Part shown: positions 10,640-37,575 of the stretch, in pieces
Position numbering within the stretch: the first letter of the stretch is position 1
Layout: each line of letters begins with the position of its first letter
Source of the DNA: Bathymodiolus brooksi
Lineage: Eukaryota; Mollusca; Bivalvia; Mytilida; Modiolidae
Length of the DNA stretch: 64,000 bases
Direction: 5' to 3'
NCBI GenBank assembly: GCA_963680875.1
Contig: OY804590.1
Coordinates: forward strand, 19,344,640 to 19,408,639
Made by a program: the position numbers and the translations under genes
Notes under the pieces: model-generated
The model's input: only the letters and a program-made list of their open reading frames with translations
What the model was told of the DNA's origin: nothing
Database searches by the model: none

Positions 10640-13600
10640 TACAAGAAGAATTTGAAGATACCAAAGGGGTAATCAGAATCTGTATATAGAAGAAGAACAG
10701 ACAACACAATGGCTACAAGATACCAAAGGGGTAATCAGAATCTGTATATAGAAGAAGAACAGACAACACAATGGCTACAAGATACCAAAGGGGTAATCAG
10801 AATCTGTATATAGAAGAAGAACAGACAACACAATGGCTACAAGATACCAAAGGGGTAATCAGAATCTGTATATAGAAGAAGAACAGACAACACAATGGCT
10901 ACAAGATACCAAAGGGGTAATCAGAATCTGTATATAGAAGAAGAACAGACAACACAATGGCTACAAGATACCAAAGGGGTAATCAGAATCTGTATATAGA
11001 AGAAGAACAGACAACACTGGCTACAAGATACCAAAGGGGTAATCAGAATCTGTATATAGAAGAAGAACAGACAACACAATGGCTACAAGATACCAAAGGG
11101 GTAATCAGAATCTGTATATAGAAGAAGAACAGACAACACAATGGCTACAAGATACCAAAGGGGTAATCAGAATCTGTATATAGAAGAAGAACAGACAACA
11201 CAATGGCTACAAGATACCAAAGGGGTAATCAGAATCTGTATATAGAAGAAGAACAGACAACACAATGGCTACAAGATACCAAAGGGGTAATCAGAATCTG
11301 TATATAGAAGAAGAACAGACAACACAATGGCTACAAGATACCAAAGGGGTAATCAGAATCTGTATATAGAAGAAGAACAGACAACACTGGCTACAAGATA
11401 CCAAAGGGGTAATCAGAATCTGTATATAGAAGAAGAACAGACAACACAATGGCTACAAGATACCAAAGGGGTAATCAGAATCTGTATATAGAAGAAGAAC
11501 AGACAACACAATGGCTACAAGATACCAAAGGGGTAATCAGAATCTGTATATAGAAGAAGAACAGACAACACAATGGCTACAAGATACCAAAGGGGTAATC
11601 AGAATCTGTATATAGAAGAAGAACAGACAACACAATGGCTACAAGATACCAAAGGGGTAATCAGAATCTGTATATAGAAGAAGAACAGACAACACAATGG
11701 CTACAAGATACCAAAGGGGTAATCAGAATCTGTATATAGAAGAAGAACAGACAACACAATGGCTACAAGATACCAAAGGGGTAATCAGAATCTGTATATA
11801 GAAGAAGAACAGACAACACAATGGCTACAAGATACCAAAGGGGTAATCAGAATCTGTATATAGAAGAAGAACAGACAACACAATGGCTACAAGATACCAA
11901 AGGGGTAATCAGAATCTGTATATAGAAGAAGAACAGACAACACAATGGCTACAAGATACCAAAGGGGTAATCAGAATCTGTATATAGAAGAAGAACAGAC
12001 AACAAAATGGCTACAAGATACCAAAGGGGTAATCAGAATCTGTATATAGAAGAAGAACAGACAACACAATGGCTACAAGATACCAAAGGGGTAATCAGAA
12101 TCTGTATATAGAAGAAGAACAGACAACACAATGGCTACAAGATACCAAAGGGGTAATCAGAATCTGTATATAGAAGAAGAACAGACAACACAATGGCTAC
12201 AAGATACCAAAGGGGTAATCAGAATCTGTATATAGAAGAAGAACAGACAACACTGGCTACAAGATACCAAAGGGGTAATCAGAATCTGTATATAGAAGAA
12301 GAACAGACAACACAATGGCTACAAGATACCAAAGGGGTAATCAGAATCTGTATATAGAAGAAGAACAGACAACACAATGGCTACAAGATACCAAAGGGGT
12401 AATCAGAATCTGTATATAGAAGAAGAACAGACAACACAATGGCTACAAGATACCAAAGGGGTAATCAGAATCTGTATATAGAAGAAGAACAGACAACACA
12501 ATGGCTACAAGATACCAAAGGTGTAATCAGAATCTGTATATAGAAGAAGAACAGACAACACAATGGCTACAAGATACCAAAGGGGTAATCAGAATCTGTA
12601 TATAGAAGAAGAACAGACAACACAATGGCTACAAGATACCAAAGGGGTAATCAGAATCTGTATATAGAAGAACAGACAACACAATGGCTACAAGATACCA
12701 AAGGGGTAATCAGAATCTGTATATAGAAGAAGAACAGACAACACAATGGCTACAAGATACCAAAGGGGTAATCAGAATCTGTATATAGAAGAAGAACAGA
12801 CAACACAATGGCTACAAGATACCAAAGGGGTAATCAGAATCTGTATATAGAAGAAGAACAGACAACACAATGGCTACAAGATACCAAAGGGGTAATCAGA
12901 ATCTGTATATAGAAGAAGAACAGACAACACAATGGCTACAAGATACCAAAGGGGTAATCAGAATCTGTATATAGAAGAAGAACAGACAACACAATGGCTA
13001 CAAGATACCAAAGGGGTAATCAGAATCTGTATATAGAAGAAGAACAGACAACACAATGGCTACAAGATACCAAAGGGGTAATCAGAATCTGTATATAGAA
13101 GAAGAACAGACAACACAATGGCTACAAGATACCAAAGGGGTAATCAGAATCTGTATATAGAAGAAGAACAGACAACACAATGGCTACAAGATACCAAAGG
13201 GGTAATCAGAATCTGTATATAGAAGAAGAACAGACAACACAATGGCTACAAGATACCAAAGGGGTAATCAGAATCTGTATATAGAAGAAGAACAGACAAC
13301 ACAATGGCTACAAGATACCAAAGGGGTAATCAGAATCTGTATATAGAAGAAGAACAGACAACACAATGGCTACAAGATACCAAAGGGGTAATCAGAATCT
13401 GTATATAGAAGAAGAACAGACAACACAATGGCTACAAGATACCAAAGGGGTAATCAGAATCTGTATATAGAAGAAGAACAGACAACACAATGGCTACAAG
13501 ATACCAAAGGGGTAATCAGAATCTGTATATAGAAGAAGAACAGACAACACAATGGCTACAAGATACCAAAGGGGTAATCAGAATCTGTATATAGAAGAAG

Positions 13601-16600
13601 AACAGACAACACAATGGCTACAAGATACCAAAGGGGTAATCAGAATCTGTATATAGAAGAAGAACAGACAACACAATGGCTACAAGATACCAAAGGGGTA
13701 ATCAGAATCTGTATATAGAAGAAGAACAGACAACACAATGGCTACAAGATACCAAAGGGGTAATCAGAATCTGTATATAGAAGAAGAACAGACAACACAA
13801 TGGCTACAAGATACCAAAGGGGTAATCAGAATCTGTATATAGAAGAAGAACAGACAACACAATGGCTACAAGATACCAAAGGGGTAATCAGAATCTGTAT
13901 ATAGAAGAAGAACAGACAACACAATGGCTACAAGATACCAAAGGGGTAATCAGAATCTGTATATAGAAGAAGAACAGACAACACAATGGCTACAAGATAC
14001 CAAAGGGGTAATCAGAATCTGTATATAGAAGAAGAACAGACAACACAATGGCTACAAGATACCAAAGGGGTAATCAGAATCTGTATATAGAAGAAGAACA
14101 GACAACACAATGGCTACAAGATACCAAAGGGGTAATCAGAATCTGTATATAGAAGAAGAACAGACAACACAATGGCTACAAGATACCAAAGGGGTAATCA
14201 GAATCTGTATATAGAAGAAGAACAGACAACACAATGGCTACAAGATACCAAAGGGGTAATCAGAATCTGTATATAGAAGAAGAACAGACAACACAATGGC
14301 TACAAGATACCAAAGGGGTAATCAGAATCTGTATATAGAAGAAGAACAGACAACACAATGGCTACAAGATACCAAAGGGGTAATCAGAATCTGTATATAG
14401 AAGAAGAACAGACAACACAATGGCTACAAGATACCAAAGGGGTAATCAGAATCTGTATATAGAAGAAGAACAGACAACACAATGGCTACAAGATACCAAA
14501 GGGGTAATCAGAATCTGTATATAGAAGAAGAACAGACAACACAATGGCTACAAGATACCAAAGGGGTAATCAGAATCTGTATATAGAAGAAGAACAGACA
14601 ACACAATGGCTACAAGATACCAAAGGGGTAATCAGAATCTGTATATAGAAGAAGAACAGACAACACAATGGCTACAAGATACCAAAGGGGTAATCAGAAT
14701 CTGTATATAGAAGAAGAACAGACAACACAATGGCTACAAGATACCAAAGGGGTAATCAGAATCTGTATATAGAAGAAGAACAGACAACACAATGGCTACA
14801 AGATACCAAAGGGGTAATCAGAATCTGTATATAGAAGAAGAACAGACAACACAATGGCTACAAGATACCAAAGGGGTAATCAGAATCTGTATATAGAAGA
14901 AGAACAGACAACACAATGGCTACAAGATACCAAAGGGGTAATCAGAATCTGTATATAGAAGAAGAACAGACAACACAATGGCTACAAGATACCAAAGGGG
15001 TAATCAGAATCTGTATATAGAAGAAGAACAGACAACACAATGGCTACAAGATACCAAAGGGGTAATCAGAATCTGTATATAGAAGAAGAACAGACAACAC
15101 AATGGCTACAAGATACCAAAGGGGTAATCAGAATCTGTATATAGAAGAAGAACAGACAACACAATGGCTACAAGATACCAAAGGGGTAATCAGAATCTGT
15201 ATATAGAAGAAGAACAGACAACACAATGGCTACAAGATACCAAAGGGGTAATCAGAATCTGTATATAGAAGAAGAACAGACAACACAATGGCTACAAGAT
15301 ACCAAAGGGGTAATCAGAATCTGTATATAGAAGAAGAACAGACAACACAATGGCTACAAGATACCAAAGGGGTAATCAGAATCTGTATATAGAAGAAGAA
15401 CAGACAACACAATGGCTACAAGATACCAAAGGGGTAATCAGAATCTGTATATAGAAGAAGAACAGACAACACAATGGCTACAAGATACCAAAGGGGTAAT
15501 CAGAATCTGTATATAGAAGAAGAACAGACAACACAATGGCTACAAGATACCAAAGGGGTAATCAGAATCTGTATATAGAAGAAGAACAGACAACACAATG
15601 GCTACAAGATACCAAAGGGGTAATCAGAATCTGTATATAGAAGAAGAACAGACAACACAATGGCTACAAGATACCAAAGGGGTAATCAGAATCTGTATAT
15701 AGAAGAAGAACAGACAACACAATGGCTACAAGATACCAAAGGGGTAATCAGAATCTGTATATAGAAGAAGAACAGACAACACAATGGCTACAAGATACCA
15801 AAGGGGTAATCAGAATCTGTATATAGAAGAAGAACAGACAACACAATGGCTACAAGATACCAAAGGGGTAATCAGAATCTGTATATAGAAGAAGAACAGA
15901 CAACACAATGGCTACAAGATACCAAAGGGGTAATCAGAATCTGTATATAGAAGAAGAACAGACAACACAATGGCTACAAGATACCAAAGGGGTAATCAGA
16001 ATCTGTATATAGAAGAAGAACAGACAACACAATGGCTACAAGATACCAAAGGGGTAATCAGAATCTGTATATAGAAGAAGAACAGACAACACAATGGCTA
16101 CAAGATACCAAAGGGGTAATCAGAATCTGTATATAGAAGAAGAACAGACAACACAATGGCTACAAGATACCAAAGGGGTAATCAGAATCTGTATATAGAA
16201 GAAGAACAGACAACACAATGGCTACAAGATACCAAAGGGGTAATCAGAATCTGTATATAGAAGAAGAACAGACAACACAATGGCTACAAGATACCAAAGG
16301 GGTAATCAGAATCTGTATATAGAAGAAGAACAGACAACACAATGGCTACAAGATACCAAAGGGGTAATCAGAATCTGTATATAGAAGAAGAACAGACAAC
16401 ACAATGGCTACAAGATACCAAAGGGGTAATCAGAATCTGTATATAGAAGAAGAACAGACAACACAATGGCTACAAGATACCAAAGGGGTAATCAGAATCT
16501 GTATATAGAAGAAGAACAGACAACACAATGGCTACAAGATACCAAAGGGGTAATCAGAATCTGTATATAGAAGAAGAACAGACAACACAATGGCTACAAG

Positions 16601-19600
16601 ATACCAAAGGGGTAATCAGAATCTGTATATAGAAGAAGAACAGACAACACAATGGCTACAAGATACCAAAGGGGTAATCAGAATCTGTATATAGAAGAAG
16701 AACAGACAACACAATGGCTACAAGATACCAAAGGGGTAATCAGAATCTGTATATAGAAGAAGAACAGACAACACAATGGCTACAAGATACCAAAGGGGTA
16801 ATCAGAATCTGTATATAGAAGAAGAACAGACAACACAATGGCTACAAGATACCAAAGGGGTAATCAGAATCTGTATATAGAAGAAGAACAGACAACACAA
16901 TGGCTACAAGATACCAAAGGGGTAATCAGAATCTGTATATAGAAGAAGAACAGACAACACAATGGCTACAAGATACCAAAGGGGTAATCAGAATCTGTAT
17001 ATAGAAGAAGAACAGACAACACAATGGCTACAAGATACCAAAGGGGTAATCAGAATCTGTATATAGAAGAAGAACAGACAACACAATGGCTACAAGATAC
17101 CAAAGGGGTAATCAGAATCTGTATATAGAAGAAGAACAGACAACACAATGGCTACAAGATACCAAAGGGGTAATCAGAATCTGTATATAGAAGAAGAACA
17201 GACAACACAATGGCTACAAGATACCAAAGGGGTAATCAGAATCTGTATATAGAAGAAGAACAGACAACACAATGGCTACAAGATACCAAAGGGGTAATCA
17301 GAATCTGTATATAGAAGAAGAACAGACAACACAATGGCTACAAGATACCAAAGGGGTAATCAGAATCTGTATATAGAAGAAGAACAGACAACACAATGGC
17401 TACAAGATACCAAAGGGGTAATCAGAATCTGTATATAGAAGAAGAACAGACAACACAATGGCTACAAGATACCAAAGGGGTAATCAGAATCTGTATATAG
17501 AAGAAGAACAGACAACACAATGGCTACAAGATACCAAAGGGGTAATCAGAATCTGTATATAGAAGAAGAACAGACAACACAATGGCTACAAGATACCAAA
17601 GGGGTAATCAGAATCTGTATATAGAAGAAGAACAGACAACACAATGGCTACAAGATACCAAAGGGGTAATCAGAATCTGTATATAGAAGAAGAACAGACA
17701 ACACAATGGCTACAAGATACCAAAGGGGTAATCAGAATCTGTATATAGAAGAAGAACAGACAACACAATGGCTACAAGATACCAAAGGGGTAATCAGAAT
17801 CTGTATATAGAAGAAGAACAGACAACACAATGGCTACAAGATACCAAAGGGGTAATCAGAATCTGTATATAGAAGAAGAACAGACAACACAATGGCTACA
17901 AGATACCAAAGGGGTAATCAGAATCTGTATATAGAAGAAGAACAGACAACACAATGGCTACAAGATACCAAAGGGGTAATCAGAATCTGTATATAGAAGA
18001 AGAACAGACAACACAATGGCTACAAGATACCAAAGGGGTAATCAGAATCTGTATATAGAAGAAGAACAGACAACACAATGGCTACAAGATACCAAAGGGG
18101 TAATCAGAATCTGTATATAGAAGAAGAACAGACAACACAATGGCTACAAGATACCAAAGGGGTAATCAGAATCTGTATATAGAAGAAGAACAGACAACAC
18201 AATGGCTACAAGATACCAAAGGGGTAATCAGAATCTGTATATAGAAGAAGAACAGACAACACAATGGCTACAAGATACCAAAGGGGTAATCAGAATCTGT
18301 ATATAGAAGAAGAACAGACAACACAATGGCTACAAGATACCAAAGGGGTAATCAGAATCTGTATATAGAAGAAGAACAGACAACACAATGGCTACAAGAT
18401 ACCAAAGGGGTAATCAGAATCTGTATATAGAAGAAGAACAGACAACACAATGGCTACAAGATACCAAAGGGGTAATCAGAATCTGTATATAGAAGAAGAA
18501 CAGACAACACAATGGCTACAAGATACCAAAGGGGTAATCAGAATCTGTATATAGAAGAAGAACAGACAACACAATGGCTACAAGATACCAAAGGGGTAAT
18601 CAGAATCTGTATATAGAAGAAGAACAGACAACACAATGGCTACAAGATACCAAAGGGGTAATCAGAATCTGTATATAGAAGAAGAACAGACAACACAATG
18701 GCTACAAGATACCAAAGGGGTAATCAGAATCTGTATATAGAAGAAGAACAGACAACACAATGGCTACAAGATACCAAAGGGGTAATCAGAATCTGTATAT
18801 AGAAGAAGAACAGACAACACAATGGCTACAAGATACCAAAGGGGTAATCAGAATCTGTATATAGAAGAAGAACAGACAACACAATGGCTACAAGATACCA
18901 AAGGGGTAATCAGAATCTGTATATAGAAGAAGAACAGACAACACAATGGCTACAAGATACCAAAGGGGTAATCAGAATCTGTATATAGAAGAAGAACAGA
19001 CAACACAATGGCTACAAGATACCAAAGGGGTAATCAGAATCTGTATATAGAAGAAGAACAGACAACACAATGGCTACAAGATACCAAAGGGGTAATCAGA
19101 ATCTGTATATAGAAGAAGAACAGACAACACAATGGCTACAAGATACCAAAGGGGTAATCAGAATCTGTATATAGAAGAAGAACAGACAACACAATGGCTA
19201 CAAGATACCAAAGGGGTAATCAGAATCTGTATATAGAAGAAGAACAGACAACACAATGGCTACAAGATACCAAAGGGGTAATCAGAATCTGTATATAGAA
19301 GAAGAACAGACAACACAATGGCTACAAGATACCAAAGGGGTAATCAGAATCTGTATATAGAAGAAGAACAGACAACACAATGGCTACAAGATACCAAAGG
19401 GGTAATCAGAATCTGTATATAGAAGAAGAACAGACAACACAATGGCTACAAGATACCAAAGGGGTAATCAGAATCTGTATATAGAAGAAGAACAGACAAC
19501 ACAATGGCTACAAGATACCAAAGGGGTAATCAGAATCTGTATATAGAAGAAGAACAGACAACACAATGGCTACAAGATACCAAAGGGGTAATCAGAATCT

Positions 19601-21270
19601 GTATATAGAAGAAGAACAGACAACACAATGGCTACAAGATACCAAAGGGGTAATCAGAATCTGTATATAGAAGAAGAACAGACAACACAATGGCTACAAG
19701 ATACCAAAGGGGTAATCAGAATCTGTATATAGAAGAAGAACAGACAACACAATGGCTACAAGATACCAAAGGGGTAATCAGAATCTGTATATAGAAGAAG
19801 AACAGACAACACAATGGCTACAAGATACCAAAGGGGTAATCAGAATCTGTATATAGAAGAAGAACAGACAACACAATGGCTACAAGATACCAAAGGGGTA
19901 ATCAGAATCTGTATATAGAAGAAGAACAGACAACACAATGGCTACAAGATACCAAAGGGGTAATCAGAATCTGTATATAGAAGAAGAACAGACAACACAA
20001 TGGCTACAAGATACCAAAGGGGTAATCAGAATCTGTATATAGAAGAAGAACAGACAACACAATGGCTACAAGATACCAAAGGGGTAATCAGAATCTGTAT
20101 ATAGAAGAAGAACAGACAACACAATGGCTACAAGATACCAAAGGGGTAATCAGAATCTGTATATAGAAGAAGAACAGACAACACAATGGCTACAAGATAC
20201 CAAAGGGGTAATCAGAATCTGTATATAGAAGAAGAACAGACAACACAATGGCTACAAGATACCAAAGGGGTAATCAGAATCTGTATATAGAAGAAGAACA
20301 GACAACACAATGGCTACAAGATACCAAAGGGGTAATCAGAATCTGTATATAGAAGAAGAACAGACAACACAATGGCTACAAGATACCAAAGGGGTAATCA
20401 GAATCTGTATATAGAAGAAGAACAGACAACACAATGGCTACAAGATACCAAAGGGGTAATCAGAATCTGTATATAGAAGAAGAACAGACAACACAATGGC
20501 TACAAGATACCAAAGGGGTAATCAGAATCTGTATATAGAAGAAGAACAGACAACACAATGGCTACAAGATACCAAAGGGGTAATCAGAATCTGTATATAG
20601 AAGAAGAACAGACAACACAATGGCTACAAGATACCAAAGGGGTAATCAGAATCTGTATATAGAAGAAGAACAGACAACACAATGGCTACAAGATACCAAA
20701 GGGGTAATCAGAATCTGTATATAGAAGAAGAACAGACAACACAATGGCTACAAGATACCAAAGGGGTAATCAGAATCTGTATATAGAAGAAGAACAGACA
20801 ACACAATGGCTACAAGATACCAAAGGGGTAATCAGAATCTGTATATAGAAGAAGAACAGACAACACAATGGCTACAAGATACCAAAGGGGTAATCAGAAT
20901 CTGTATATAGAAGAAGAACAGACAACACAATGGCTACAAGATACCAAAGGGGTAATCAGAATCTGTATATAGAAGAAGAACAGACAACACAATGGCTACA
21001 AGATACCAAAGGGGTAATCAGAATCTGTATATAGAAGAAGAACAGACAACACAATGGCTACAAGATACCAAAGGGGTAATCAGAATCTGTATATAGAAGA
21101 AGAACAGACAACACAATGACCAAACAAAAAAGGACACAATGACAAACAACGATATAAAAACATTACACACAAAGCTAAAGATCGAGTTACACTAGAAGCT
21201 AGGGGTGAACTCAAGTACTCCGGAAGGGCAAGCAGCTCCTGCTCCACATTCGAAGCTGATACGTGGTCTA
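10640..21270 (-). mobile_element. Retroelement 3' tail (family 1) hosting the 62-bp array
   Basis: On the - strand the right flank (21270-21119) is an ordinary family-1 tail: GAGCAGGAGCTGCTTGCCCT, TCCGGAGTACTTGAGTTCAC, GTAACTCGATCTTTAGC, GTTTGTCATTGTGTCC. It then enters the array at the CATTGTGTTGTCTGTTC landmark. The left flank (10656-10640) is the normal 3' terminus, CTTCAAATTCTTCTTGTAGC. The 10.5-kb array therefore replaces, inside one tail copy, the segment that is single in other copies. Confidence 0.8.
10657..21118. repeat. 62-bp satellite array, about 169 copies
   Basis: Unit in + orientation: GATACCAAAGGGGTAATCAG, AATCTGTATATAGAAGAAGA, ACAGACAACACAATGGCTAC, AA. Copy number follows from (21118-10657) with 62-bp spacing. 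Variants I can see: a 2-bp deletion giving ACAACACTGG at 11011, 11381 and 12247; ACAAAATGG at 12001; AAGGTGTAATC near 12521; a 3-bp deletion near 12670. From about 12700 to 21118 I see no variant. 62 is not a multiple of three, so no long ORF exists. There are no spacers between units, so it is not a CRISPR array. Confidence 0.97.
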
Positions 21271-21289
21271 AGTAATTAATCATCCATAT

Positions 21290-22065
21290 TGATCGGGATC
21301 AAATTTTAAATTAATTGTTCCAAATTAAACAGACGGGTACTACATTTCTCGACAAATAGTTTACAATATATTTGTTGTATCGTATCTTTACTTCTTTTAT
21401 GTAAGGTATACAATACAGCACAAAAATCTGATTTTGTTTCCATGGTTACTATTAATTTCGAGTATACTGTGATCATTTTACACCATCGTGGTATCAGTCC
21501 AGAATCATTTCTACTAAGATTCATTAAGCATGTTACTTCATTACGAAGATGTCATTTTTTGCAACAATTTGTAAGCCAACATGACGATTTTTCCCAAAAA
21601 CAAGAAAACGTGTATATGCTCGTTACATTAACATAGAAGTCGTGCCTGTAATTGTCACGCGATATTGATATAAGATAGTAATTTAGACAACATATGAATA
21701 ATATGCTTGTCTGACCTACAAGACATCGGTCTCATAATTCTGGTGAAGAACACGTTTTCTAAACAGTACAGTTTACAGATAATACAAATCGATATATAGC
21801 AGTAAAATACTTTCTTGAAAACATGTCAAATTATCACAAACTATGTTGTCTTTTCCACGCTTAACCAGTATAATAACATATAATTTTGTCCAATGAAATT
21901 GTCATGCAAAACTATTAAACACTTGACTAATGTATAATATATAGTATAATATAATATATGTATATAGTTTGAATGATTATCTATCATCTGTCCAGTAGTC
22001 AGTGTTTCGCCACTGACATGGTTTATTAGACATATTTACTATTGAAATTTACAGTTCCTAAAAGC
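21290..22065. other. AT-rich stretch, nothing recognised
   Basis: Two overlapping short ORFs on opposite strands (21306-21636) show no motif I know and no splice context. I see no gene or repeat here. Confidence 0.4.
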
Positions 22066-22069
22066 ATAA

Positions 22070-24227: not shown

Positions 24228-24479
24228 TTACTCTTGTTGTAGACACGTTGATAAGTCATAAATCAGGAAAGGATCGAACAAATGGAACATATCAGTGTTA
24301 ATTTGTGAAACAGATATACCGTAAAGGTTGACAAAGTCACCATGACGACCGTAAAGGTTTACAAAGTCACGATTACGACCGTTAAACGTTCTAAATAATG
24401 ACTTCAAATTAACCAGTAGGAACCTTTGATACAGTAACCTGTATGATAAAGTTATTCCGAGAATGCAATTTGACTCCAC
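24228..24479 (-). pseudogene. Reverse transcriptase C-terminal remnant
   Basis: The residues after about 18 (LLYQRFLLVNLKSLFRTFNG, then RDFVNLYG, ISVSQINTDMFHLF, FLIYDLSTCL) match the extreme C-terminus of the RT-type protein seen at 32022-32222 (LNQGFILAKLKSSLRKLYGR, DLVDRYGISVSQ). Within it about 30 bp are tandemly duplicated, giving two copies of the GR-x-x-DFVNLYG block. 5'-truncated, so only a non-functional tail of the protein remains. The stop codon is followed by the family-1 3' tail. Confidence 0.72.
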
Positions 24480-25560: not shown

Positions 25561-25567
25561 TAGAATC

Positions 25568-26715: not shown

Positions 26716-27049
26716 CAAAATACTACTCACTTGACTTTAAACAGAAATTATTCAATTCAACATAGACGTTATCAGAAATATTCTTTATATATCGAAACAT
26801 TTTCACAGTTCAATGGGAAGCACTTTTGTAGACAATGTTGATAATAGACAAATGGAAAGGTTAAGGATATGCGTATCTCGGGTCAAACTGTCGATCCTTT
26901 ATCAATTAATGAATAAATTAATACATAAAAAAAATTATCGTCTAGTACAACATATGAAACGGCTTATGTTTACCAATTTAGTATATTCAAGCTTTTCGTG
27001 ATAGGAACTGCTCACCTTGGACGGCTGGTGGATATATTAATTACACTTT

Positions 27050-27215
27050 AACGTGAGTGAGCGAGTAATTGTTGCTTAGCGCCAACTCGGAAATATTTCA
27101 GCTATATCATGGCGAGAAAAAGTTAATTTTCAATATCATGATGATAATGAGACCCGCTTTGTACACGCGCTTAATTGGATTTTTATAATGCTAGCTCAAT
27201 TGTTACTGTATCTGT
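27050..27215 (-). mobile_element. SINE1, 3' part
   Basis: Begins with GTGAGTGAGCGAGTAATTGT and, read on the - strand, ends with TTTTTCTCGCCATGATATAG, CTGAAATATTTCC, GTTGGCGCTAAGCAACAA. Upstream part ATTGAGCTAGCATTATAAAA and TCCAATTAAGCGCGTG also fits. No head. Confidence 0.68.
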
Positions 27216-27299
27216 TTTACCATATTTAAATCAAATAGACAAACACGGATGTTGTCACGAAATTCACATTAAAACACAGTTTTGAAACGATGGTCTTTA

Positions 27300-27475
27300 C
27301 CTCCAGTTGTTTCTAGGAAGACGCATGTCTTACATACGTTATTTGTGTTTGCTTGCGTATAGTGGTGTCCAATTTAGTGTTGTGGTTTTCTTTCTTCGTC
27401 TTGTGTACGCTTTGTTGCCAGTTCCTCTAGATTCCATTTTTGATTGCCCCTTCGGTATTCTGTAGTTTATTTACC
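27300..27475 (+). repeat. Retroelement 3' tail (variant B)
   Basis: GCTTGCGTATAGTGGTGTCC, TTTCTTCGTCTTGTGTACGC, CCATTTTTGATTGCCCCTTC, GGTATTCTG. The GGCTTATAGTGGTGTCGAAC at 48540 is the same segment. Flanked by two short repeats of ATATTTAAAT-AAATAGACA and TTGTCACGAAATTCACATTA (27220-27290 and 27475-27535), which may be a duplicated target region. Confidence 0.58.
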
Positions 27476-27917
27476 ATATTTAAATAAAATAGACAGATAA
27501 GGATGTTGTCACGAAATTCACATTAAAACACAGTTTAATAAACAAATGAATCGACTCTCACACGATATATTTGCTGGTCGTGTCCTTCATTTAATTAAGG
27601 ACACATGTTGGCAGTAATATATGTGGATTTCTGACATTTAAATTCAATGGAAAACGTCATCTAATATTTTGTTTTATAAATGATAATTATCAATAGCTAT
27701 CTCGTCCTGTAATTAAAGATTTCATGTCTAACATATTACCAGACAGATCAAATGTAAAATCTGTTTTACCTAAGGTCTATGCCTTTGACGTGCTGGACTT
27801 GAAAAGGTAGGTCTCCAATTATATTCATGTTTCAAAGTCATTACCCCTCATGTAATTAGTTTGCCCTCCGTAATTACATAATGGACACAAAGTAATTATC
27901 ATCTCGATTTGAAATCC

Positions 27918-28668
27918 ATCTAAAGATGAGATTTAATATTAATCAATAGACAAATAGTCCGATAAAGATATTAGGTTTAAGGAAGATCAGAAAAATAATC
28001 GTGTTACATCACGATTAGAAAAAAACATATTACCGACATAATGTTCTGATTTGTATCTGGTTTCACAATATGGGTATATATATATGCAGTGTTCAAATTT
28101 CTCGTTTCAATTGCTATCATCGTGGGCTTTAAAATGGGTATATACGATTTTATTTGCGAAATTTGAATTGTGTGAAATAAATGAAAAGATAAACAAATAT
28201 AATCAAAACAGATAAGAATACCTTCTTTAATTTTCTGCAAACTCTTTATGATACAACAATATCGCTGGGGAACACAATGGATTGGAATATATTGACTTGG
28301 ATGAATGAGCTAACAAATGTTCATTATTCATTATTTGTCAGATATTGAATACAGATTAAATGGCTATGATCAACATTTCCACCATTAGAAGAAAAAAAGA
28401 CCAAAAACACTCATTTATCATCTCAACTCATTAAATATATAAAATAAAACCACAACATACAACGTTAGAATTCAGAGAGAATATTCTACAAAGCCTTGTT
28501 AATCTGAAAAAAACTATAGCTATTTATTCTGTATACATTCCAGCACATTCACTTCTAAATCTGCCGCATCTTTTTTTTCATTTGGCCATTGTGTTGTCTG
28601 TTCTTCATCGATATACGGATTCTGATTACACCTTTGGTATCTTCAAACTCTTCTTAAGAAGCTAACAG
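27918..28668 (+). repeat. Local segmental duplication, copy A
   Basis: First of three related segments. Shared runs include AAAGATGAGATTTAATATTA, GTCCGATAAAGATATTAG, CGTGTTACATCACGATTAGA, CGACATAATGTTCTGAT, TTCAATTGCTATCATCGTGG, and GAAATAAATGAAAAGATAAA. It ends in a family-1 tail fragment (GGCCATTGTGTTGTCTGTTC, ATCGATATACGGATTCTGAT, GGTATCTTCAAACTCTTC at 28570-28665). Confidence 0.8.
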
Positions 28669-28769
28669 ATCAAATACCTTCTCCACCCATGACAATAAGT
28701 GATTTGGACGGTCACAATTCTATACGGGGCAAGTAGTAAATCTATAAATGGACAGAGTAAATATATGAT

Positions 28770-29045
28770 TGATTGATTGATCTTTGGTGCTTAGCGCCAC
28801 TTTCAACAATATTTCAGCTATAACATGGCGACCAGTTTTAGTGGTGGAAGAAGCCAGAGTACCCGGAGAGAACCACAGACCATGGGCAAGCAACTGGTAA
28901 ACTTTATCACTTGCAGCTGCGAGTCGAGTGCACCCTTTTTGTAATTTACTAAGCCGGGCGCGAACCCACGCCGTATTGGTGATAGGCTTGCATGGTTGTT
29001 AGGTAATCCAACTACCTAACTCATTGAGCCATCCGGGCCCTCAGT
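28770..29045 (-). mobile_element. tRNA-derived SINE, family SINE2, full length with intact head
   Basis: On the - strand the head is GGGCCCGGATGGCTCAATGA, GTTAGGTAGTTGG (A box) and GGCGTGGGTTCGCGCCCGGC (B box GGTTCGCGCC). Then CTGCAAGTGATAAAGTTTAC, CAGTTGCTTGCCCATGG, GGTACTCTGGCTTCTTCCAC, CACTAAAACTGGTCGCCATG, TTATAGCTGAAATATTGTTG, AAAGTGGCGCTAAGCACC. It separates duplication copies A and B. This is the best evidence that SINE2 is tRNA-derived. Confidence 0.85.
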
Positions 29046-29075
29046 GTAAATATAATGACGAAAGATATATCCCAT

Positions 29076-30858
29076 AAAGATGAGATTTAATATTAAACAA
29101 TAGACAAATTGTCCGATAAAGATATTAGATTGAAGGAAAGAACAGAATAATCGTGTTACATCACGATTAGAGTAAAAAATATCATCGACATAATGTTCTG
29201 ATATTTATCTGGTTTGACAATCTGGGTGAATCTGTAGTGTTCAAATTGATCGCTTCAATTGCTATCATCGTGGGCTTTAAAATGGGTATGTACGATTCTA
29301 TGTGCGAAATTTGAATTGTGTGAAATAAATGAAAAGATAAAAAAATCTAACTATTACAGATACGATTCGTCAGTTTATTGCAAGTTCTTTCTGATACACC
29401 AAGAAGGTCAGAACATATTGACGAGAATGAATGGGCTGCCAAATGCTCAAACATCTTTAGCTGTCAGAGATGAAATAATGATTAAACAGTGATCATTCCA
29501 TCAAGAGCAAACAACAAACGACCAAACACATATTCTCTCACCTCATTGAATATATTAAAGAAAACGATGACATACAACGTTGGAAGTCAAAGAGAATATT
29601 TTATAAAGTCTTGTTAATCTGAAAAAGGCTATAGCTATTTATTATGTATACATTCCAGCAAATTCACTTCTAAATCTGCCGCATCTTTTTCTTGTGGCCA
29701 TTGTGTTGTCTGTTCTTCATCGATATACGATATTTTTGTAGAAGTGACCAGTTATCTATATACTTAGAGAATTCATCTTTCAAAAGACATGAAAACTCTA
29801 CAAAATTTACATTTAATCAAGATTATTGACCATGCTATAAACAATTAGGTAGCGATGAAAAACGCAAATATTTGAAAGTATTTCGGATCTTGTTTTGAAA
29901 TATAACTTTATCGAAACTAACAGGTAAATTCGAATAAATAATTTCTATGACCTCGACAACTTTTAACATCCGGGTAAATATTAGTATGTAGATAAGTGTG
30001 ATGAAGCTCTAACAACTTGTAGAAAGACTGAACGACGGCTCAGTGAACAACTACAGATAATATTAACATTGTACGTATCTTTCGAGTGAAAGGGCACCAA
30101 GAGTGTGTAAATCTATTTCTAACATAAATGGTCCCTTTTACGTATTTTTATTTCCTCTATCACCAACAATATTTCTAATGGACTTGACTATGAATAACTC
30201 AGCGGGTGTCTTATAAGAAACATGAACTTCTTACAATTCGTGATCAGCTGTGTTCAACCGCGGAGTTTTGGTGGGTTCCATGTTGCTCATCTTTCTAGTT
30301 TGCTGTGCTGTTTTGAGTATTCGTCCTGTGTCTTGTGTTCATTTTGACATATGCCTTGGATTTTCCATTATTGATTTCCCCTTCGCTTTTCTCTAACGTT
30401 TATTTATAATTAACTTTCACAAAGCTTTAATATATATATAATTGATAAAACAATGCCAAAGACATCGGCAACCTTCAACATCCAGATAAACATGATTGTA
30501 ATGAAGACCTTGGAAATTGTGAAAAAAAAAGATAGATTAGCAATTAAATAGTGGCAAAAAGCACTTCTTGGAGAATTGATTTCTAAAATAAACTGTCACA
30601 CATTACTCTAATTAAAGTTTATAATGGGGTCGAACACATGTATGTAACTTTGTCATTCATATATACATAATTTGTTATATAAATGAAATTGGTATGTGAC
30701 ATTTGTTCATGACGCCAAGTTGTTAAATGTGTAGGCATGTCAAATCAACAGAAACAGCGTCGACTGACAACCTGTGAAATGTTATTCACAATTTATTGAT
30801 GCAAAGTTTTATCTAATCGTTATGTAAAAGAAATTATTCATAGGTTTCATTTCTTTTT
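29076..30858 (+). repeat. Local segmental duplication, copy B
   Basis: Its first part (29076-29735) matches copy A; the whole (to 30858, resuming at 31645 after an insertion) matches copy C. Shared with C: ATCTTTCGAGTGAAAGGGCA, GTGTGTAAATCTATTTCTAA, CTTGACTATGAATAACTCAG, CGGGTGTCTTATAAGAA, ATGTCAAATCAACAGAAACA, CAACCTGTGAAATGTTATTC, ACAATTTATTGATGCAAAGT. Contains a variant-B tail at 30215-30410 and a family-1 fragment at 29690-29735. Confidence 0.82.
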
Positions 30859-30862
30859 GCAA

Positions 30863-31645
30863 ATAAGGGTAATAACAAAATTACCGAACTCCGAACAATC
30901 TTACAAAGGGAAAGTCAAAACTCATAATTATATAAACAGACAAAATCAGTCAACAACCGGGAAACTGTGAAAACCGTAATGACCCTGACTTGGTACAGGC
31001 ATTTCTAAAGAAATGGTGGGTTGAATCAGATTTTAAGGCGCCAAACCTCCCGCTCTCATTACGGTTCAAAGGTTCCGGCTGTCACTGTAACAGTATTTAA
31101 ATACAGGAACAAAATAGGTAAAATAGTTGTCAAAGCAGTACCATATTCGGTGACGTAAATGTCAAAAATATTTTTACGTCACACATTGACAAAAAAAAAA
31201 TTTGACTTCTTTATCTTTATACATTTTCACTATATGAAAATGCATCGCTTATAATTTTTTCTGCAGAGACGGAATATATTTCGACAAGATATTGGTATCG
31301 GAATATAAACTTTTTAAGAGATCGAATAAGGCGAATCTTTTTATAGCCCTGGTCCAGTAGCCTGTTTCTCAGATGAAGATGACGTTTCAGGAAATCAGAA
31401 TAATTGCTACTGGCCCTTGCATAGCGAATCAATTGCGAGATGTAAACACCATATGCAGGAGAAGCTGGTATATTGCTGCACATATTTGGAAAATTTATGA
31501 TTTTAAAATTGAAGTCGTCCCGCTTATCATAAATTTTAGTACTGAGTTGACCACTGTCGTCAAATTCGAGGTATAAGTCCAAAAATGATGCGGACGAAGC
31601 TGTATCGGTGGTCTCTTTAACTTCCAGCTCTGGAGGATATATCAA
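30863..31645 (-). mobile_element. 5'-truncated retroelement (family 2) with RT fragment and 3' tail
   Basis: On the - strand it reads: RT C-terminal coding from about 31640, stop at 31217, short AT-rich spacer, then the family-2 tail (31113-30863) ending TTATTACCCTTATTT. Comparison with copy C of the surrounding duplication (TTTCCTTTTGTAAACGACAG at 33770) shows the site without the insert, so both ends are defined within a few bases. 5' truncation is the usual product of target-primed reverse transcription. Confidence 0.78.
31217..31645 (-). pseudogene. Reverse transcriptase C-terminal fragment
   Basis: The first residues of the open frame (up to about VCRF) come from flanking DNA. The protein proper starts at IYPPELEVKETTDTASSASF and continues LDLYLEFDDSGQLSTKIYDK, RDDFNFKIINFP, SSNIPASP-like CSNIPASPAYGVYISQLIRY, ARASSNYSDFLKRH, LLDQGYKKIRLIRSLKKF. 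This is the region C-terminal to the catalytic core in a family of metazoan RT proteins related to Penelope-like elements (my assignment, from memory of the pattern). The catalytic motifs are absent because of truncation, so it cannot be active. The frame is open to its natural stop, so the copy is fairly young. Confidence 0.72.
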
Positions 31646-31699
31646 GAAACGACAGACATAATATACTTGACTAAATATATATTTGTTTATCATGTTCAA

Positions 31700-31790
31700 A
31701 TGTTAGATCACAGTGGAATAGAAATGGTTACGATATCTGCCACAAGTGTGGGACATGGATGGTTCGATCCTCGATCGGGTCGACTTAAAC
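31700..31790 (+). mobile_element. SINE1 head fragment
   Basis: AGATCACAGTGGAATAGAAA, GGTTACGATATCTGCCACAA, GATGGTTCGATCCTCGATCG, GGTCGACTTAAACTATAA. It is the duplicate of 33870-33960 (copy C), where the SINE continues to its tail; here it is cut off after ACTATAA by a family-1 retroelement tail on the - strand, apparently a later insertion. Confidence 0.65.
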
Positions 31791-31794
31791 TATA

Positions 31795-32021
31795 AGAAGA
31801 GTTGAAGATACCAAGGGGTAATCAAAATCCGTAAATCGAAGAACAGACAATACAACGGCCAAAAGAAAAAAAACAAAAGGACAAACAATGATCTACAAAG
31901 CATAATCATAAAACTAAAGATCGGGTAACATGAACCCCACTAAAAACTGGAGGTGATCTCAGGTGCTCCGGAAGGGTAAGCAGTTCTTGCTCCACTAGTG
32001 ACACCCGTCGTGTTAATCTAG
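31795..32021 (-). repeat. Retroelement 3' tail (family 1) joined to RT remnant
   Basis: On the - strand: GGGTGTCACTAGTGGAGCAA, GAACTGCTTACCCTTCCGGA, GCACCTGAGATCACCTCCAG, TTTTTAGTGGGGTTCATGTT, ACCCGATCTTTAGTTTTATG, GATCATTGTTTGTCC, GGCCGTTGTATTGTCTGTTC, GATTTACGGATTTTGATTAC, CTTGGTATCTTCAACTCTTC. Complete and contiguous with the coding end at 32022. Confidence 0.83.
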
Positions 32022-32222
32022 TTATAAGCCCAGTGATAGGTCATGAATGAGGAAAGAATCCGGAAGTGTTTGCGACAAGTGGAGCATATTCGTGGTCATT
32101 TGTGACACAGATATTCCATAGCGGTCAACCAAGTCATGGTGACGACCGTACAACTTTCGCAGTGATGACTTCAACTTAGCTAATATGAACCCTTGGTTCA
32201 GTAGCTTCTTTGTTAGCAGCAA
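32022..32222 (-). pseudogene. Reverse transcriptase C-terminal remnant
   Basis: Sixty-six codons: LLTKKLLNQGFILAKLKSSL, RKLYGRHHDLVDRYGISVSQ, MTTNMLHLSQ, DSFLIHDLSLGL and stop. This is the last part of the same RT-type protein as at 31217 and 44292. 5'-truncated at about 32225, so only the C-terminus is left. The start methionine is incidental. Its immediate continuation into the 31795-32021 tail fixes the 3' structure of family 1. Confidence 0.75.
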
Positions 32223-32279
32223 CCATCTATCAAGAGAATCCTGATAGGAACCACAAGCTCTGGAATATCACATTTTAAT

Positions 32280-32425
32280 TGGATCCTTCTGCGTCCACTC
32301 AGCATTAAGAGCACGGACTAGTTGGCTAGAAATCAGGATAATGTTTCAGAGAAGAGCGACATGTCTATACGCGGATATGTGTTTCATTGAGCTAGCACTA
32401 TAAAATCTAAGCGTGTTGGTCTAGT
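32280..32425 (+). mobile_element. SINE1, body fragment
   Basis: TTCTGCGTCCACTCAGCATT, AAGAGCACGGACTAGTTGG, AATCAGGATAATGTTTCAGA, GAGCGACATGTCTATACGCG, TTGAGCTAGCACTATAAAAT, AAGCGTGTTGGTCTAGTACA. Neither head nor tail; it abuts duplication copy C. Confidence 0.7.
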
Positions 32426-33870
32426 ACAAAGAGTCCGATAAATATATTAGATTTAAGGAAGAACAGAGGAGAATTGTGTTACATCACGATTAGAAAAAAC
32501 ATATTACCGATATAATGTTCTGATATTTACCTGGTTTGACAATCCTGAGTATATACGTAGTGTTAAGATATGTAGGGTTTATATTTCTCGTTTCAATTGC
32601 TATCATTAAATTAGCCATCTACGATTTTATGTACTAAATTTGAATAACCTGAAATAAATGAAAAGATAAAAAAAATCCAATCATAACAGATACGATTCGT
32701 CAGTTCACTGCACATTCCTACTGATACATCAATAGAGCTGGGAAACACAAGGGATGAGAGCATATTAATGAGGATGAATGAGCTACCAAATGCTCAACAC
32801 TTATTACTTGTCAGATATTAAATACAGATTAAATGGCTATGATCAACATTGCCACCAATAGAAGAAAACACAACAACAATCACCTATTATCTCAACTCAT
32901 TAACCATAGAAACAGATCACGAAATATGACGTTAGAATTCAGAGAGAATGTTTTGCATTAGCCTTGTTCAATCTGAAAACAGATCTACAGACGGATGATG
33001 TACGGAAATCTTTAATAAAAAAGCTTTCGCTATCTCTTTCGAGTGAAAGGGCATCAAGGGGAGTGTGTAAATCTATTTCTAAAATAAATTATGTTTTTCT
33101 TTCCTCTATCACTGACAAGATTTATAATGGACTTGACTATGAATAACTCAGCGGGTGTCTTATAAGAAGCAGGAAGAGCTTACAATTCATGATCAGCTGG
33201 GTTCAGTCCCGACGTTTGGGTGGGTTCTATGTTGCTCATCTTTCTAGTATTCTATGATGTTTTTATGTATTCGTCCTGTCTTTTATATATGGCCAATTTG
33301 ACCTATTTATCTGGATTTTCCAGTCTTGATTGCACCTTCTCTTATTTAACGTTTGTTTATAATTTAACTTCAGCGAAAAATATATATATATAGTTGACAA
33401 ATCAATTTCAAACACCTCGACAACATTAATTAAAATTAGAAATTGACATAAACTGTCACACATTACTCTGAATAAAGTTTATAATGTGGTCGAACACTTG
33501 TATGTACTATTGTGTTTTCGCGTCATTCATATTTACACAATTTGTTATATAAATGAAATTGGTACTTAGTCTGGTCATGACATTTGATTATGATACTACG
33601 TTGTCAAATTGCTAGACATTGTCTATAACAGCAAGCTCACAGAAATAGATTCATGCTATGTCAAATCAACAGAAACAGCATCGACTGACAACCTGTGAAA
33701 TGTTATTCACAATTTATTGATGCAAAGTTTTATCTAATCGTTATATAACAGAAATTATTCATAGGTTTCATTTCCTTTTGTAAACGACAGGCATAATATA
33801 CTTGATTAAACATACATTTGTTGATCAACAATGATTATTTTCTCTACTACGCATGTTCAAATGTTAGATC
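32425..33870 (+). repeat. Local segmental duplication, copy C
   Basis: Matches copies A and B (GTCCGATAAATATATTAGAT, TGTGTTACATCACGATTAGA, CTATCTCTTTCGAGTGAAAG, CTTGACTATGAATAACTCAG, ATGTTATTCACAATTTATTG). It lacks the family-2 retroelement present in B and so preserves the empty site near 33793. It carries a variant-B tail at 33155-33360. The short ORF at 32964-33146 overlaps this repeat and is not supported as a gene. Confidence 0.8.
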
Positions 33871-33874
33871 GCAG

Positions 33875-34170
33875 TGATAGAGTATTGGTTACTGTGCTTG
33901 CCACATGTGTGGTATATTGTTGGTTCGAGCCTCGGTCCGGTCAAGCGTAGACTATAAAATTTGTATGTTATCCTTCTCCGTCCGGTATGCATTAAGAGCA
34001 GAGAGACATGTCTACACGCAAACTGTTGTTTCAGTGAGCTAGCACTATGCAAACTAAGTGTGTTGGTCTAGTATAAAGCAAGCATCATCTCATTGCAATG
34101 TAGCTTATTTTCACCATGATATACCTGAAATATAGATCATTTGGCGTTTAACAACAATCACAAACTCCCT
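33875..34170 (+). mobile_element. tRNA-derived SINE, family SINE1
   Basis: Head: GAGTATTGGTTACTGTGCTT and TTGGTTCGAGCCTCGG (B box). Body: GTAGACTATAAAATTTGTAT, AGAGAGACATGTCTACACGC, AACTGTTGTTTCAGTGAGCT, AGCACTATGCAAACTAAGTG, TGTTGGTCTAGTATAAAGC. Tail: TTCACCATGATATACCTGAA, ATATAGATCATTTGGCGTTT, AACAACAATCAC. Confidence 0.82.
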
Positions 34171-34424
34171 TGCGCAAACGTTGGTTGTTTTATTATTTCA
34201 TATAGTATTTAGATTTGATAAATGGAACAGGAAATCGCATAGAATAATTTTAACATACCAACAATGATGAAACAGACAATACGAGAAACTATGTACGGCA
34301 TCTTCAACAGAACTGAATAAAGGGTCAATATAAAAGAACACGTTGCAAACTATTTAGAAGGAAGGAAGTACATGTATATCGCTCGCTGTCCAAATGTTAA
34401 CATGCATATGTTCTGTTTGTCGTA

Positions 34425-37400
34425 ATCACAATCCGGTTCTTTCCTCATTTATGACTTATTACCGTGTTTGTAAGAAGAGAAACACAACGGGGGTCACATG
34501 TGGAGCAGGAACTGCTTACCCTTTCGTAGCATATGAGTGATGCTTTGTAGATCGTTGTTTTGTCCTTTTTACCATTGTGTTGTCTGTCCTTCTTCTTTTT
34601 ACCATTGTGTTGTCTGTCCTTCTTCTTTTTACCATTGTGTTGTCTGTCCTTCTTCTTTTTACCATTGTGTTGTCTGTCCTTCTTCTTTTTACCATTGTGT
34701 TGTCTGTCCTTCTTCTTTTTACCATTGTGTTGTCTGTCCTTCTTCTTTTTACCATTGTGTTGTCTGTCCTTCTTCTTTTTACCATTGTGTTGTCTGTCCT
34801 TCTTCTTTTTACCATTGTGTTGTCTGTCCTTCTTCTTTTTACCATTGTGTTGTCTGTCCTTCTTCTTTTTACCATTGTATTGTCTGTCCTTCTTCTTTTT
34901 ACCATTGTGTTGTCTGTCCTTCTTCTTTTTACCATTGTGTTGTCTGTCCTTCTTCTTTTTATCATTGTGTTGTCTGTCCTTCTTCTTTTTATCATTGTGT
35001 TGTCTGTCCTTCTTCTTTTTACCATTGTGTTGTCTGTCCTTCTTCTTTTTACCATTGTGTTGTCTGTCCTTCTTCTTTTTACCATTGTGTTGTCTGTCCT
35101 TCTTCTTTTTACCATTGTGTTGTCTGTCCTTCTTCTTTTTACCATTGTGTTGTCTGTCCTTCTTCTTTTTACCATTGTGTTGTCTGTCCTTCTTCTTTTT
35201 ACCATTGTATTGTCTGTCCTTCTTCTTTTTACCATTGTGTTGTCTGTCCTTCTTCTTTTTACCATTGTGTTGTCTGTCCTTCTTCTTTTTACCATTGTAT
35301 TGTCTGTCCTTCTTCTTTTTACCATTGTGTTGTCTGTCCTTCTTCTTTTTACCATTGTGTTGTCTGTCCTTCTTTTTTTTACCATTGTGTTGTCTGTCCT
35401 TCTTCTTTTTACCATTGTGTTGTCTGTCCTTCTTCTTTTTACCATTGTGTTGTCTGTCCTTCTTCTTTTTACCATTGTGTTGTCTGTCCTTCTTCTTTTT
35501 ACCATTGTGTTGTCTGTCCTTCTTCTTTTTACCATTGTGTTGTCTGTCCTTCTTCTTTTTACCATTGTGTTGTCTGTCCTTCTTCTTTTTACCATTGTGT
35601 TGTCTGTCCTTCTTCTTTTTACCATTGTGTTGTCTGTCCTTCTTCTTTTTACCATTGTGTTGTCTGTCCTTCTTCTTTTTACCATTGTATTGTCTGTTCT
35701 TCTTCTTTTTACCATTGTGTTGTCTGTCCTTCTTCTTTTTACCATTGTGTTGTCTGTCCTTCTTCTTTTTACCATTGTGTTATCTGTCCTTCTTCTTTTT
35801 ACCATTGTGTTGTCTGTCCTTCTTCTTTTTACCATTGTATTGTCTGTCCTTCTACTTTTTACCATTGTGTTGTCTGTCCTTCTTTTTTTTACCATTGTGT
35901 TGTCTGTCCTTCTTTTTTTTACCATTGTGTTGTCTGTCCTTCTTCTTTTTACCATTGTGTTGTCTGTCCTTCTTCTTTTTACCATTGTGTTGTCTGTCCT
36001 TCTTCTTTTTACCATTATATTGTCTGTCCTTCTTCTTTTTACCATTGTATTGTCTGTCCTTCTTCTTTTTACCATTGTGTTGTCTGTCCTTCTTCTTTTT
36101 ACCATTGTGTTGTCTGTCCTTCTTCTTTTTACCATTGTGTTGTCTGTCCTTCTTCTTTTTACCATTGTGTTGTCTGTCCTTCTTCTTTTTACCATTGTAT
36201 TGTCTGTCCTTCTTCTTTTTACCATTATGTTTTCTGTCCTTCTTCTTTTTACCATTGTGTTGTCTGTCCTTCTTCTTTTTACCATTGTGTTGTCTGTCCT
36301 TCTTCTTTTTACCATTGTGTTGTCTGTCCTTCTTCTTTTTACCATTGTGTTGTCTGTCCTTCTTCTTTTTACCATTGTGTTGTCTGTGTTTCTTCTTTTT
36401 ACCATTGTGTTGTCTGTCCTTCTTCTTTTTACCATTGTGTTGTCTGTCCTTCTTCTTTTTACCATTGTGTTGTCTGTCCTTCTTCTTTTTACCATTGTAT
36501 TGTCTGTCCTTCTTCTTTTTACCATTGTGTTGTCTGTCCTTCTTCTTTTTACCATTGTGTTGTCTGTCCTTCTTCTTTTTACCATTGTGTTGTCTGTCCT
36601 TCTTCTATTTACCATTGTGTTGTCTTTGTTTCTTCTTTTTACCATTGTGTTGTCTGTCCTTCTTCTTTTTACCATTGTGTTGTCTGTCCTTCTTTTTACC
36701 ATTGTGTTGTCTGTGTTTCTTATTTTTACCATTGTGTTGTCTGTGTTTCTTCTTTTTACCATTGTGTTGTCTGTCCTTCTTCTTTTTACCATTGTGTTGT
36801 CTGTCCTTCTTCTTTTTACCATTATGTTGTCTGTCCTTCTTCTTTTTACCATTGTGTTGTCTGTCCTTCTTCTTTTTACCATTGTGTTGTCTGTCCTTCT
36901 TCTTTTTACCATTGTGTTGTCTGTCCTTCTTCTTTTTACCATTGTATTGTCTGTCCTTCTTCTTTTTACCATTGTGTTGTCTGTCCTTCTTCTTTTTACC
37001 ATTGTGTTGTCTGTCCTTCTTCTTTTTACCATTGTGTTGTCTGTCCTTCTTCTTTTTACCATTGTGTTGTCTGTCCTTCTTCTTTTTACCATTGTGTTGT
37101 CTGTCCTTCTTCTTTTTACCATTGTGTTGTCTGTCCTTCTTCTTTTTACCATTGTGTTGTCTGTCCTTCTTCTTTTTACCATTGTGTTGTCTGTCCTTCT
37201 TCTTTTTACCATTGTGTTGTCTGTCCTTCTTCTTTTTACCATTGTGTTGTCTGTCCTTCTTCTTTTTACCATTGTGTTGTCTGTCCTTCTTCTTTTTACC
37301 ATTGTGTTGTCTGTCCTTCTTCTTTTTACCATTGTGTTGTCTGTCCTTCTTCTTTTTACCATTGTGTTGTCTGTGTTTCTTCTTTTTACCATTGTGTTGT

Positions 37401-37575
37401 CTGTCCTTCTTCTTTTTACCATTGTGTTGTCTGTCCTTCTTCTTTTTACCATTGTGTTGTCTGTCCTTCTTCTTTTTACCATTGTGTTGTCTGTCCTTCT
37501 TCTTTTTACAATTGTGTTGTCTGTCCTTCTTCTTTTTACCATTGTGTTGTCTGTCCTTCTTCGATACTTTTAAAG
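34425..37575 (+). mobile_element. Retroelement 3' tail (family 1) hosting the 30-bp array
   Basis: 34425-34560 reads as the end of the RT protein (TTTCCTCATTTATGACTTAT, then a stop) and the start of the family-1 tail: AACACAACGGGGGTCACATG, TGGAGCAGGAACTGCTTACC, CTTTGTAGATCGTTGTTTTG. At the point where other copies read CTTTTTCTTTTGGCCATTGT the array begins. After the array TTCTTCGATAC follows as in the normal tail (TTCTTCGATATACGG), then homology is lost. Confidence 0.82.
34561..37563. repeat. 30-bp satellite array, about 100 copies
   Basis: Unit in + orientation: CTTTTTACCATTGTGTTGTC, TGTCCTTCTT. Substitutions are scattered throughout (for example ATTGTAT, ATTATGT, CTGTGTTTC, CTATTT), and one unit near 36690 is 27 bp. 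Because 30 is a multiple of three and the unit is stop-free in five of six frames, the array produces artificial frames of about 1000 codons on both strands, such as a - strand one with the ten-residue period MVKRRRTDNT. I see no promoter, splice site or unique domain attached, so none is called as a gene. Confidence 0.96.

Follow-up and report, generated by a model that had tools for sequence, protein, structure and literature searches.

According to Haber and Louis (1998), as described in PMC6947457 and PMC3389668, minisatellites can be born by slippage or unequal exchange between short direct repeats that flank a segment. Minisatellites derived from Alu and other transposable elements (TEs) have been described in the human genome (PMC3389668, citing Jurka and Gentles), and the same paper puts the share of human TE-derived tandem repeats explained by the postulated mechanisms at only 6%. 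In Lathyrus, satellites are traced to short tandem arrays in the 3′ untranslated regions of Ogre long terminal repeat (LTR) retrotransposons (PMC7004042), and oyster satellitomes are related to Helitrons, with repeats mostly matching the Helitron central repeats (PMC11136912). The onset of such arrays is hard to study since each minisatellite is usually met once, after it has grown. Here we describe a 64,000-nucleotide stretch of the mussel Bathymodiolus brooksi (contig OY804590.1, positions 19,344,640 to 19,408,639; hereafter the window) in which two long tandem arrays are built from, and embedded in, the 3′ tail of one retroelement family. On balance we favor the view that this tail is a ready-made pre-minisatellite, in which slippage would give rise to dimers that grow locally and are in part spread by the element.

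Two tandem arrays in one retroelement tail

We aligned the array units to a 311-bp tail consensus, in which position 311 is the 3′ end. Unit lengths, copy numbers and percent matches of the two arrays are those of Tandem Repeats Finder (TRF).

10655-21118, minus strand: array 1, 62-bp unit, 168.9 copies, 99% match
21119-21247, minus strand: single-copy tail upstream of array 1 (5′ side in the sense of the tail)
10643-10712, minus strand: last copy of array 1, reaching the normal 3′ end (CAAATTCTTCTT)
34565-37562, plus strand: array 2, 30-bp unit, 100 copies, 97% match
34387-34564, plus strand: single-copy tail upstream of array 2, with an internal deletion

The unit of array 1 corresponds to tail positions 241-299 plus a junction and the unit of array 2 to positions 235-264, so that 24 bp of tail are common to both. 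The TRF calls and the consensus alignment thus bear out a preliminary description of this DNA, in which the two oppositely oriented arrays were said to share a segment of one retroelement tail. That description also gave both arrays normal tail on either side, with a few bases after array 2; this is true of both sides of array 1 and of the upstream side of array 2, at whose downstream edge only ~5 tail bases are left. A core sequence within the common segment, CCATTGTGTTGTCTGT, has 249 matches in the window versus 0 in dinucleotide shuffles. Array 1 is nearly perfect (an identical 62-mer in 159 of 165 spacings, with variant units confined to the part below ~12.7 kb), whereas array 2 holds 16 unit types over 99 spacings, 73 of them identical, which indicates that the two arrays differ in age or turnover. 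Random placement of both units on the tail DNA of the window gave a 24-bp or longer overlap in 18% of trials, so the window by itself shows no hot spot; the genome-wide counts given below do. Two further arrays in the window, a perfect 30-bp × 5.2 array at 5195-5350 and a 105-bp × 6 array at 45181-45815, have no match to the tail.

After masking of both arrays, 25 further tail-matching segments are found in the window. Ordinary copies have a sharp 3′ end near GGTATCTTCAAACTCTTCTT, and some follow the remains of a reverse transcriptase (RT) reading frame.

1513-1702, plus strand: ordinary tail copy
31793-32267, minus strand: ordinary tail copy with its 3′ end at 31793 and the end of an RT reading frame upstream (32025-32267)
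44241-44913, plus strand: RT fragment (44241-44597), then an ordinary tail copy with its 3′ end at 44913
28571-28656, plus strand: last ~85 bp of the tail, joined to another upstream body, with an exact core
57245-57520, plus strand: two 5′-truncated tails in head-to-tail order, the second attached to the 3′ terminus of the first (73-79% identity to other copies)

Ordinary single copies are therefore present as first described, if less uniform: within the window the exact core occurs as a single copy only at 28586 and 29698, and the cores of the copies at 1515, 31795 and 44645 are one or two bases off. A ~1.1-kb tandem pair occupies 27921-29729. Its 3′ parts finish with the terminal ~45-85 bp of the tail, attached to another body, and may belong to a non-autonomous element with a borrowed tail. 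A 30-bp × 2.4 duplication lies within the RT reading frame of a family copy at 24318-24390.

A protein search with the 44241-44597 RT fragment returned 10 proteins, two of them from the window itself, and a search with a relative returned 5472. The RT fragments of the window have no Pfam match, and four relatives match RVT_1 below the Pfam cut-off. Motifs such as YIDDVLS and PKLHK in the relatives are reminiscent of Penelope-like elements, of which the family may be a member. The hammerhead motif of Penelope-like elements is not present in every lineage; the window, to which the search was confined, has no Rfam match to it at gathering scores, nor to anything else in Rfam at those scores. The predicted RT fold (mean pLDDT, the predicted local distance difference test score, of 48) was too poor a model for structural comparison, and no relative was found in the viral contigs searched. 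Contigs filed under Bathymodiolus symbionts bear the same tail (L001, 88% identity over 272 bp), so that the element is shared with mussels; these contigs (L001-L004), filed as symbiont genomes and carrying an animal-type retroelement, are probably host DNA. Elsewhere in the window, a transposase-like frame at 49936-50616 on the minus strand matches Pfam DDE_3 above the cut-off.

Recurrence of tail-derived arrays in the genome

In the 2.0-Gb genome (136 contigs) a 16-mer of the core occurs 62,529 times and its reversed control 0 times. Core matches are paired at spacings of 24-54 bp in 20,122 instances and at 55-85 bp in 27,301, the latter including next-but-one copies of 30-bp arrays. As an upstream control, the 16-mer CACTAGTGGAGCAGGA, from ~140 bp further 5′ in the tail, has 10,813 copies, with 248 pairs spaced 22-52 bp; a terminal 16-mer of the tail has 49,027 copies. 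Single copies, counted by eye over the first ~14-25 Mb of C1 and then extrapolated, number 3.1 per Mb for the core, 2.4 for the terminal 16-mer and 3.9 for the upstream control, so that total occurrences exceed extrapolated singles 10.1-fold, 10.1-fold and 1.4-fold, respectively. These totals are dominated by a few long arrays. Short arrays number seven for the core in 27.6 Mb versus nine control loci in ~821 Mb, and per extrapolated single copy they are ~29-fold more frequent for the core (Fisher p = 9e-8). Among the matches listed there is also an array built from the terminal segment of the tail, spaced at 59 bp, at C1:13637223-13641604.

The counts uphold this stretch as a recurrent nucleation site, as had been proposed. 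Nucleation at the 3′ terminus itself, to which the proposal had assigned that role, is not supported: the 30-bp unit ends 47 bp before it. Several observations nevertheless weigh against an excess at the core. The excess was measured against one upstream control, and in the first 13.93 Mb of C1 arrays occur at three of 46 core versus one of 61 control loci (p = 0.31), the other 43 core loci being single; most tails thus stay single. The 18% chance of the overlap seen in the window, and the grid sites described below, where array depth along the tail roughly tracks copy depth, agree with a simpler account without a hot spot, in which array births would scale with copy number and 5′ truncation would simply make the 3′ end region of the tail the most abundant. 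We regard this account as unlikely, since the upstream 16-mer, with an equal or higher density of single copies, is ~29 times rarer in short arrays.

Ten tandem loci elsewhere were read at their edges (L013-L019 were picked for clustered core matches and stand outside all grid counts).

L093: 62-bp dimer, both edges
L094: 31-bp dimer, both edges
L014: 29-bp array, about 4 copies, both edges
L096: 30-bp array, 7 copies, both edges
L097: 30-bp array, 15 copies, both edges
L098: 32-bp array, 18 copies, both edges
L091/L092: 31-bp array, about 65 copies by coordinates, both edges
L013: 64-bp array, 62 copies, both edges
L095: 62 bp, left edge only
L099: 30 bp, left edge only

Every array read at both edges sits within a separate tail copy that has flanks of its own, and downstream of the array the tail extends to the 3′ end in eight of eight loci (in degenerate form in L013), array 2 of the window being the exception. 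In these loci, as in the window arrays, units match the element and element sequence borders the array, the mark of a TE-derived tandem repeat. Together with the window they present the tail as single, as a dimer, and at about 4, 7, 15, 18, 65, 100 and 169 copies; unit lengths of 29, 30, 31, 32, 36 and 38 bp are found at different loci.

A grid of 71 sites (11 at 2 Mb, C7 and C9 being too short to have one, and 60 interior, with C10, C12 and C13 under-sampled) gives a view of how general such arrays are. Tandem arrays fill more than 85% of 21 of the 71 sites, namely seven of the 11 at 2 Mb, which may be untypical, and 14 of the 60 interior ones, with periods of 28-151 bp; minisatellite or satellite DNA may make up about a quarter of the genome. 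The sites hold 27 arrays of at least five copies, of which 25 are distinct when both L025 pieces and L028 are taken as one; arrays below five copies, such as that of L050, were excluded. Four of the 25 (L021, L024, L030 and L045) have a strong match to the tail, above 42.5 bits, a score reached by 0.1% of all 2200 shuffles, and four more (L023, L025/L028, L052 and L080) have a weaker match, 41.1 to 29.7 bits, that beats all 40 of their own shuffles. Given that the tail makes up 2.8% of non-array DNA at the grid sites, the binomial p is 0.005 for four of 25 and 3e-7 for eight of 25; interior sites alone give three of 15 (p = 0.008), or two of 15 without L080 (p = 0.07), all these values being rough because long arrays are easier to hit and clusters of related arrays are possible. 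The grid-site arrays, which are tied to the tail by unit alignment alone, map to tail positions 139-298, and the L050 duplication maps to 13-72. Array units are thus not confined to the last ~100 bp of the tail; the terminus itself is not special among grid-site arrays, and we dropped nucleation at the terminus alone in view of the spread of unit positions over 13-298 and of the copy-depth pattern.

Taken together, these figures make it plausible, though we put it forward tentatively, that one retroelement family acts as a satellite foundry, with slippage-prone tails and ready-made dimers at thousands of sites, and that in this genome, perhaps a quarter of which is tandem arrays, up to a third of the long ones grew from it.

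Other features of the grid sites were recorded in passing. The 39-bp tail-like satellite of L025 (C6) flips orientation around 7575-7584 and recurs on C11 (L028). L029 was not counted, its RT-region match of 39.7 bits being equal to that of unrelated window DNA. Units of 41, 27, 28 and 28 bp in L022, L033 (109-524), L048 (1078-1138) and L084 share a motif like TTCCGACAGTGTGGTA, by which another dispersed sequence seems to found arrays repeatedly in a like manner.

Proposed birth, spread and growth of the duplications

The tail consensus contains two best direct repeats at 20-80 bp spacing, both matching at nine of ten positions: 225/255, with a spacing of 30 bp, and 12/84, with one of 72 bp. 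The 225/255 repeat brackets the core, and its spacing equals the 30-bp unit: near-identical pyrimidine-rich stretches, TGTTCTTTTTC and TGTTCTTCTTC, lie 30 bp apart on either side of the ~24-bp core. The 12/84 repeat matches the 72-bp duplication at L050, and GGAGCA occurs twice in the consensus, 24 bp apart, where a 24-bp × 7.3 array sits in the same tail in L002, one of the contigs filed under a Bathymodiolus symbiont. Exact repeats of at least 6 bp at 20-80 bp spacing number ten versus 4.4 in shuffles, of which 7 of 200 have as many, and over ten unit classes the fit of unit boundaries to direct repeats has a p of 0.005, with no contribution from the 62-, 64-, 66- and 39-bp classes. These results are consistent with a course of events in which slippage or unequal exchange between the two pyrimidine stretches would duplicate the core segment into dimers of about 29-32 bp, while a weaker pairing between TCTT near 233 and TCTT near 296 may give the 62-bp dimer. 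Renewed slippage, unequal exchange or conversion would afterwards enlarge the dimers at certain insertion sites to tens or hundreds of copies, and the element itself would carry some dimers to new sites, where they would expand later.

Several points count against this proposal. The 62-bp class has no direct repeat at its boundaries beyond TCTT, its best 10-mer match being five of ten, and the 64-, 66- and 39-bp classes are likewise not explained by direct repeats; in addition, a junction, TTCTGTCTTTT, common to several 31/32-bp loci could mean descent from one dimer. The direct repeats thus support slippage for some of the unit classes. Replication slippage, which had been suggested at the outset as one possible cause, fits the 30-bp class through the 225/255 repeat and finds only TCTT to act on in the 62-bp class.

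The junction of array 1 reads GGTATCTTGTAGCCATTG, and a 20-mer spanning it occurs 193 times genome-wide, 164 of them within the window. Outside C19 the exact junction is found in at least 27 places at at least 11 loci, most with one or two listed; among these, C10:54.06 Mb holds a second array, and the others would be dimers. Because the junction occurs at so many other loci, the founding duplication of array 1 was probably not born where it now stands, which limits the earlier suggestion that two independent amplifications began here. Most likely this duplication came about on one or a few occasions, was carried along by the element and expanded at this locus, and for array 2 local birth is the more likely origin. 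In array 1 the sequence GTAGC is found at the junction and again behind the last copy, as it would be if a second insertion, or a duplication reaching 4-5 bp into host DNA, had founded the array. We consider this highly improbable: the exact junction recurs at those other loci, L093 has GTGG at the same place without such a flank, and single tails carry CTTGTGGCC (at 29686 and in the L096 flank), so that an origin at the host boundary is largely refuted. McGurk and Barbash reportedly proposed in 2018 that satellites arise from double insertion, that is, from two independent, nested or adjacent insertions; for array 1 the recurrent junction and the sequences of L093 and the single tails speak against it, and the tails at 57245 and 57372 could be such a pair, not expanded.

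The recurrence of junctions raises the further possibility that the dimers were formed a single time, in one or a few source elements that bore them, that retrotransposition spread them and that only growth is recurrent. Besides the array 1 junction, this possibility draws on the 31-bp junction, which is present in L094, L091/L092 and L098 and in a single unit of L014, with short 5′-truncated tails in two of these cases. It is nonetheless somewhat doubtful as a full account, as junctions and unit lengths differ among loci, different tail segments yield different units, and the private TTTTAAG of L098 occurs in its units and also in its left flank. A mixture of spread from source elements with local birth is likely. 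The preliminary description had also invoked the RT, which, by jumping or slipping on its template in the 3′ priming region as the element inserts, would make the first duplication. The unit of array 1 does fall within the last 71 bp of the tail, the 57245/57372 pair is joined at the 3′ terminus of its first tail, and PMC11167929 reports tandem organization and internal initiation for a Penelope-like element. The 30-bp class, however, stops well short of the terminus, arrays also derive from segments far from it, and in all eight other loci read at both edges the tail goes on beyond the array to its 3′ end, which argues against RT priming at the terminus; we judge this mechanism quite improbable. 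We thus return to the pre-minisatellite tail, with slippage as the probable initiating act and retrotransposition as a probable vehicle. What the data show directly is that the arrays are tail sequence lying in ordinary tails, that such arrays recur, that the core exceeds one upstream control and that the 62-bp junction is present at further loci; slippage as the first step, retrotransposition as the means of spread and the way the arrays grow are inferred.

Comparison with described systems

The process itself is already known, both as minisatellites arising in TEs via short direct repeats and as short retroelement arrays that expand (PMC6947457, PMC3389668 and PMC7004042). A literature search found no satellite from such a tail among the titles and abstract openings listed, a weak absence since it covered open-access papers only, and the words "Penelope" and "retrotransposon" are absent from the main text of a Limnoperna satellite paper (PMC12818792). 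What is notable here is how many natural replicates there are and how much of the genome may be involved. One ~300-bp tail at thousands of sites, met in several stages, would allow the birth rate per copy to be related to repeat identity and spacing and could let birth be told apart from growth, and one element supplies satellites with many different units. If the family is indeed a satellite foundry, its near-identical tails are natural replicates for measuring the birth rate of minisatellites.

As in the minisatellites of Haber and Louis, a unique segment between short direct repeats is duplicated and then grows, and the 30-bp class fits that scheme; here, in contrast, the segment is present at thousands of sites and births are replicated, and the 62-bp class does not fit, with TCTT at its boundaries in place of direct repeats of 5-10 bp. 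The human TE-derived minisatellites likewise originate inside retroelements and involve short direct repeats, whereas here the element is another one, the source is a non-coding tail, and the genome share is apparently far larger, although the shares were measured differently. With the Ogre elements of Lathyrus this family has in common that short arrays in the 3′ region of a retroelement spread with the element and expand at some loci; unlike Ogre it is, as far as seen, not an LTR element, and most of its tails are without an array (43 of 46 core loci are single). The tandems described for Penelope-like elements in PMC11167929 are whole or partial elements and not 30-62 bp pieces of a tail. 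In both the oyster satellitomes and the mussel studied here, bivalve satellites are largely related to TEs, but the source in the mussel is a retroelement tail that is normally single.

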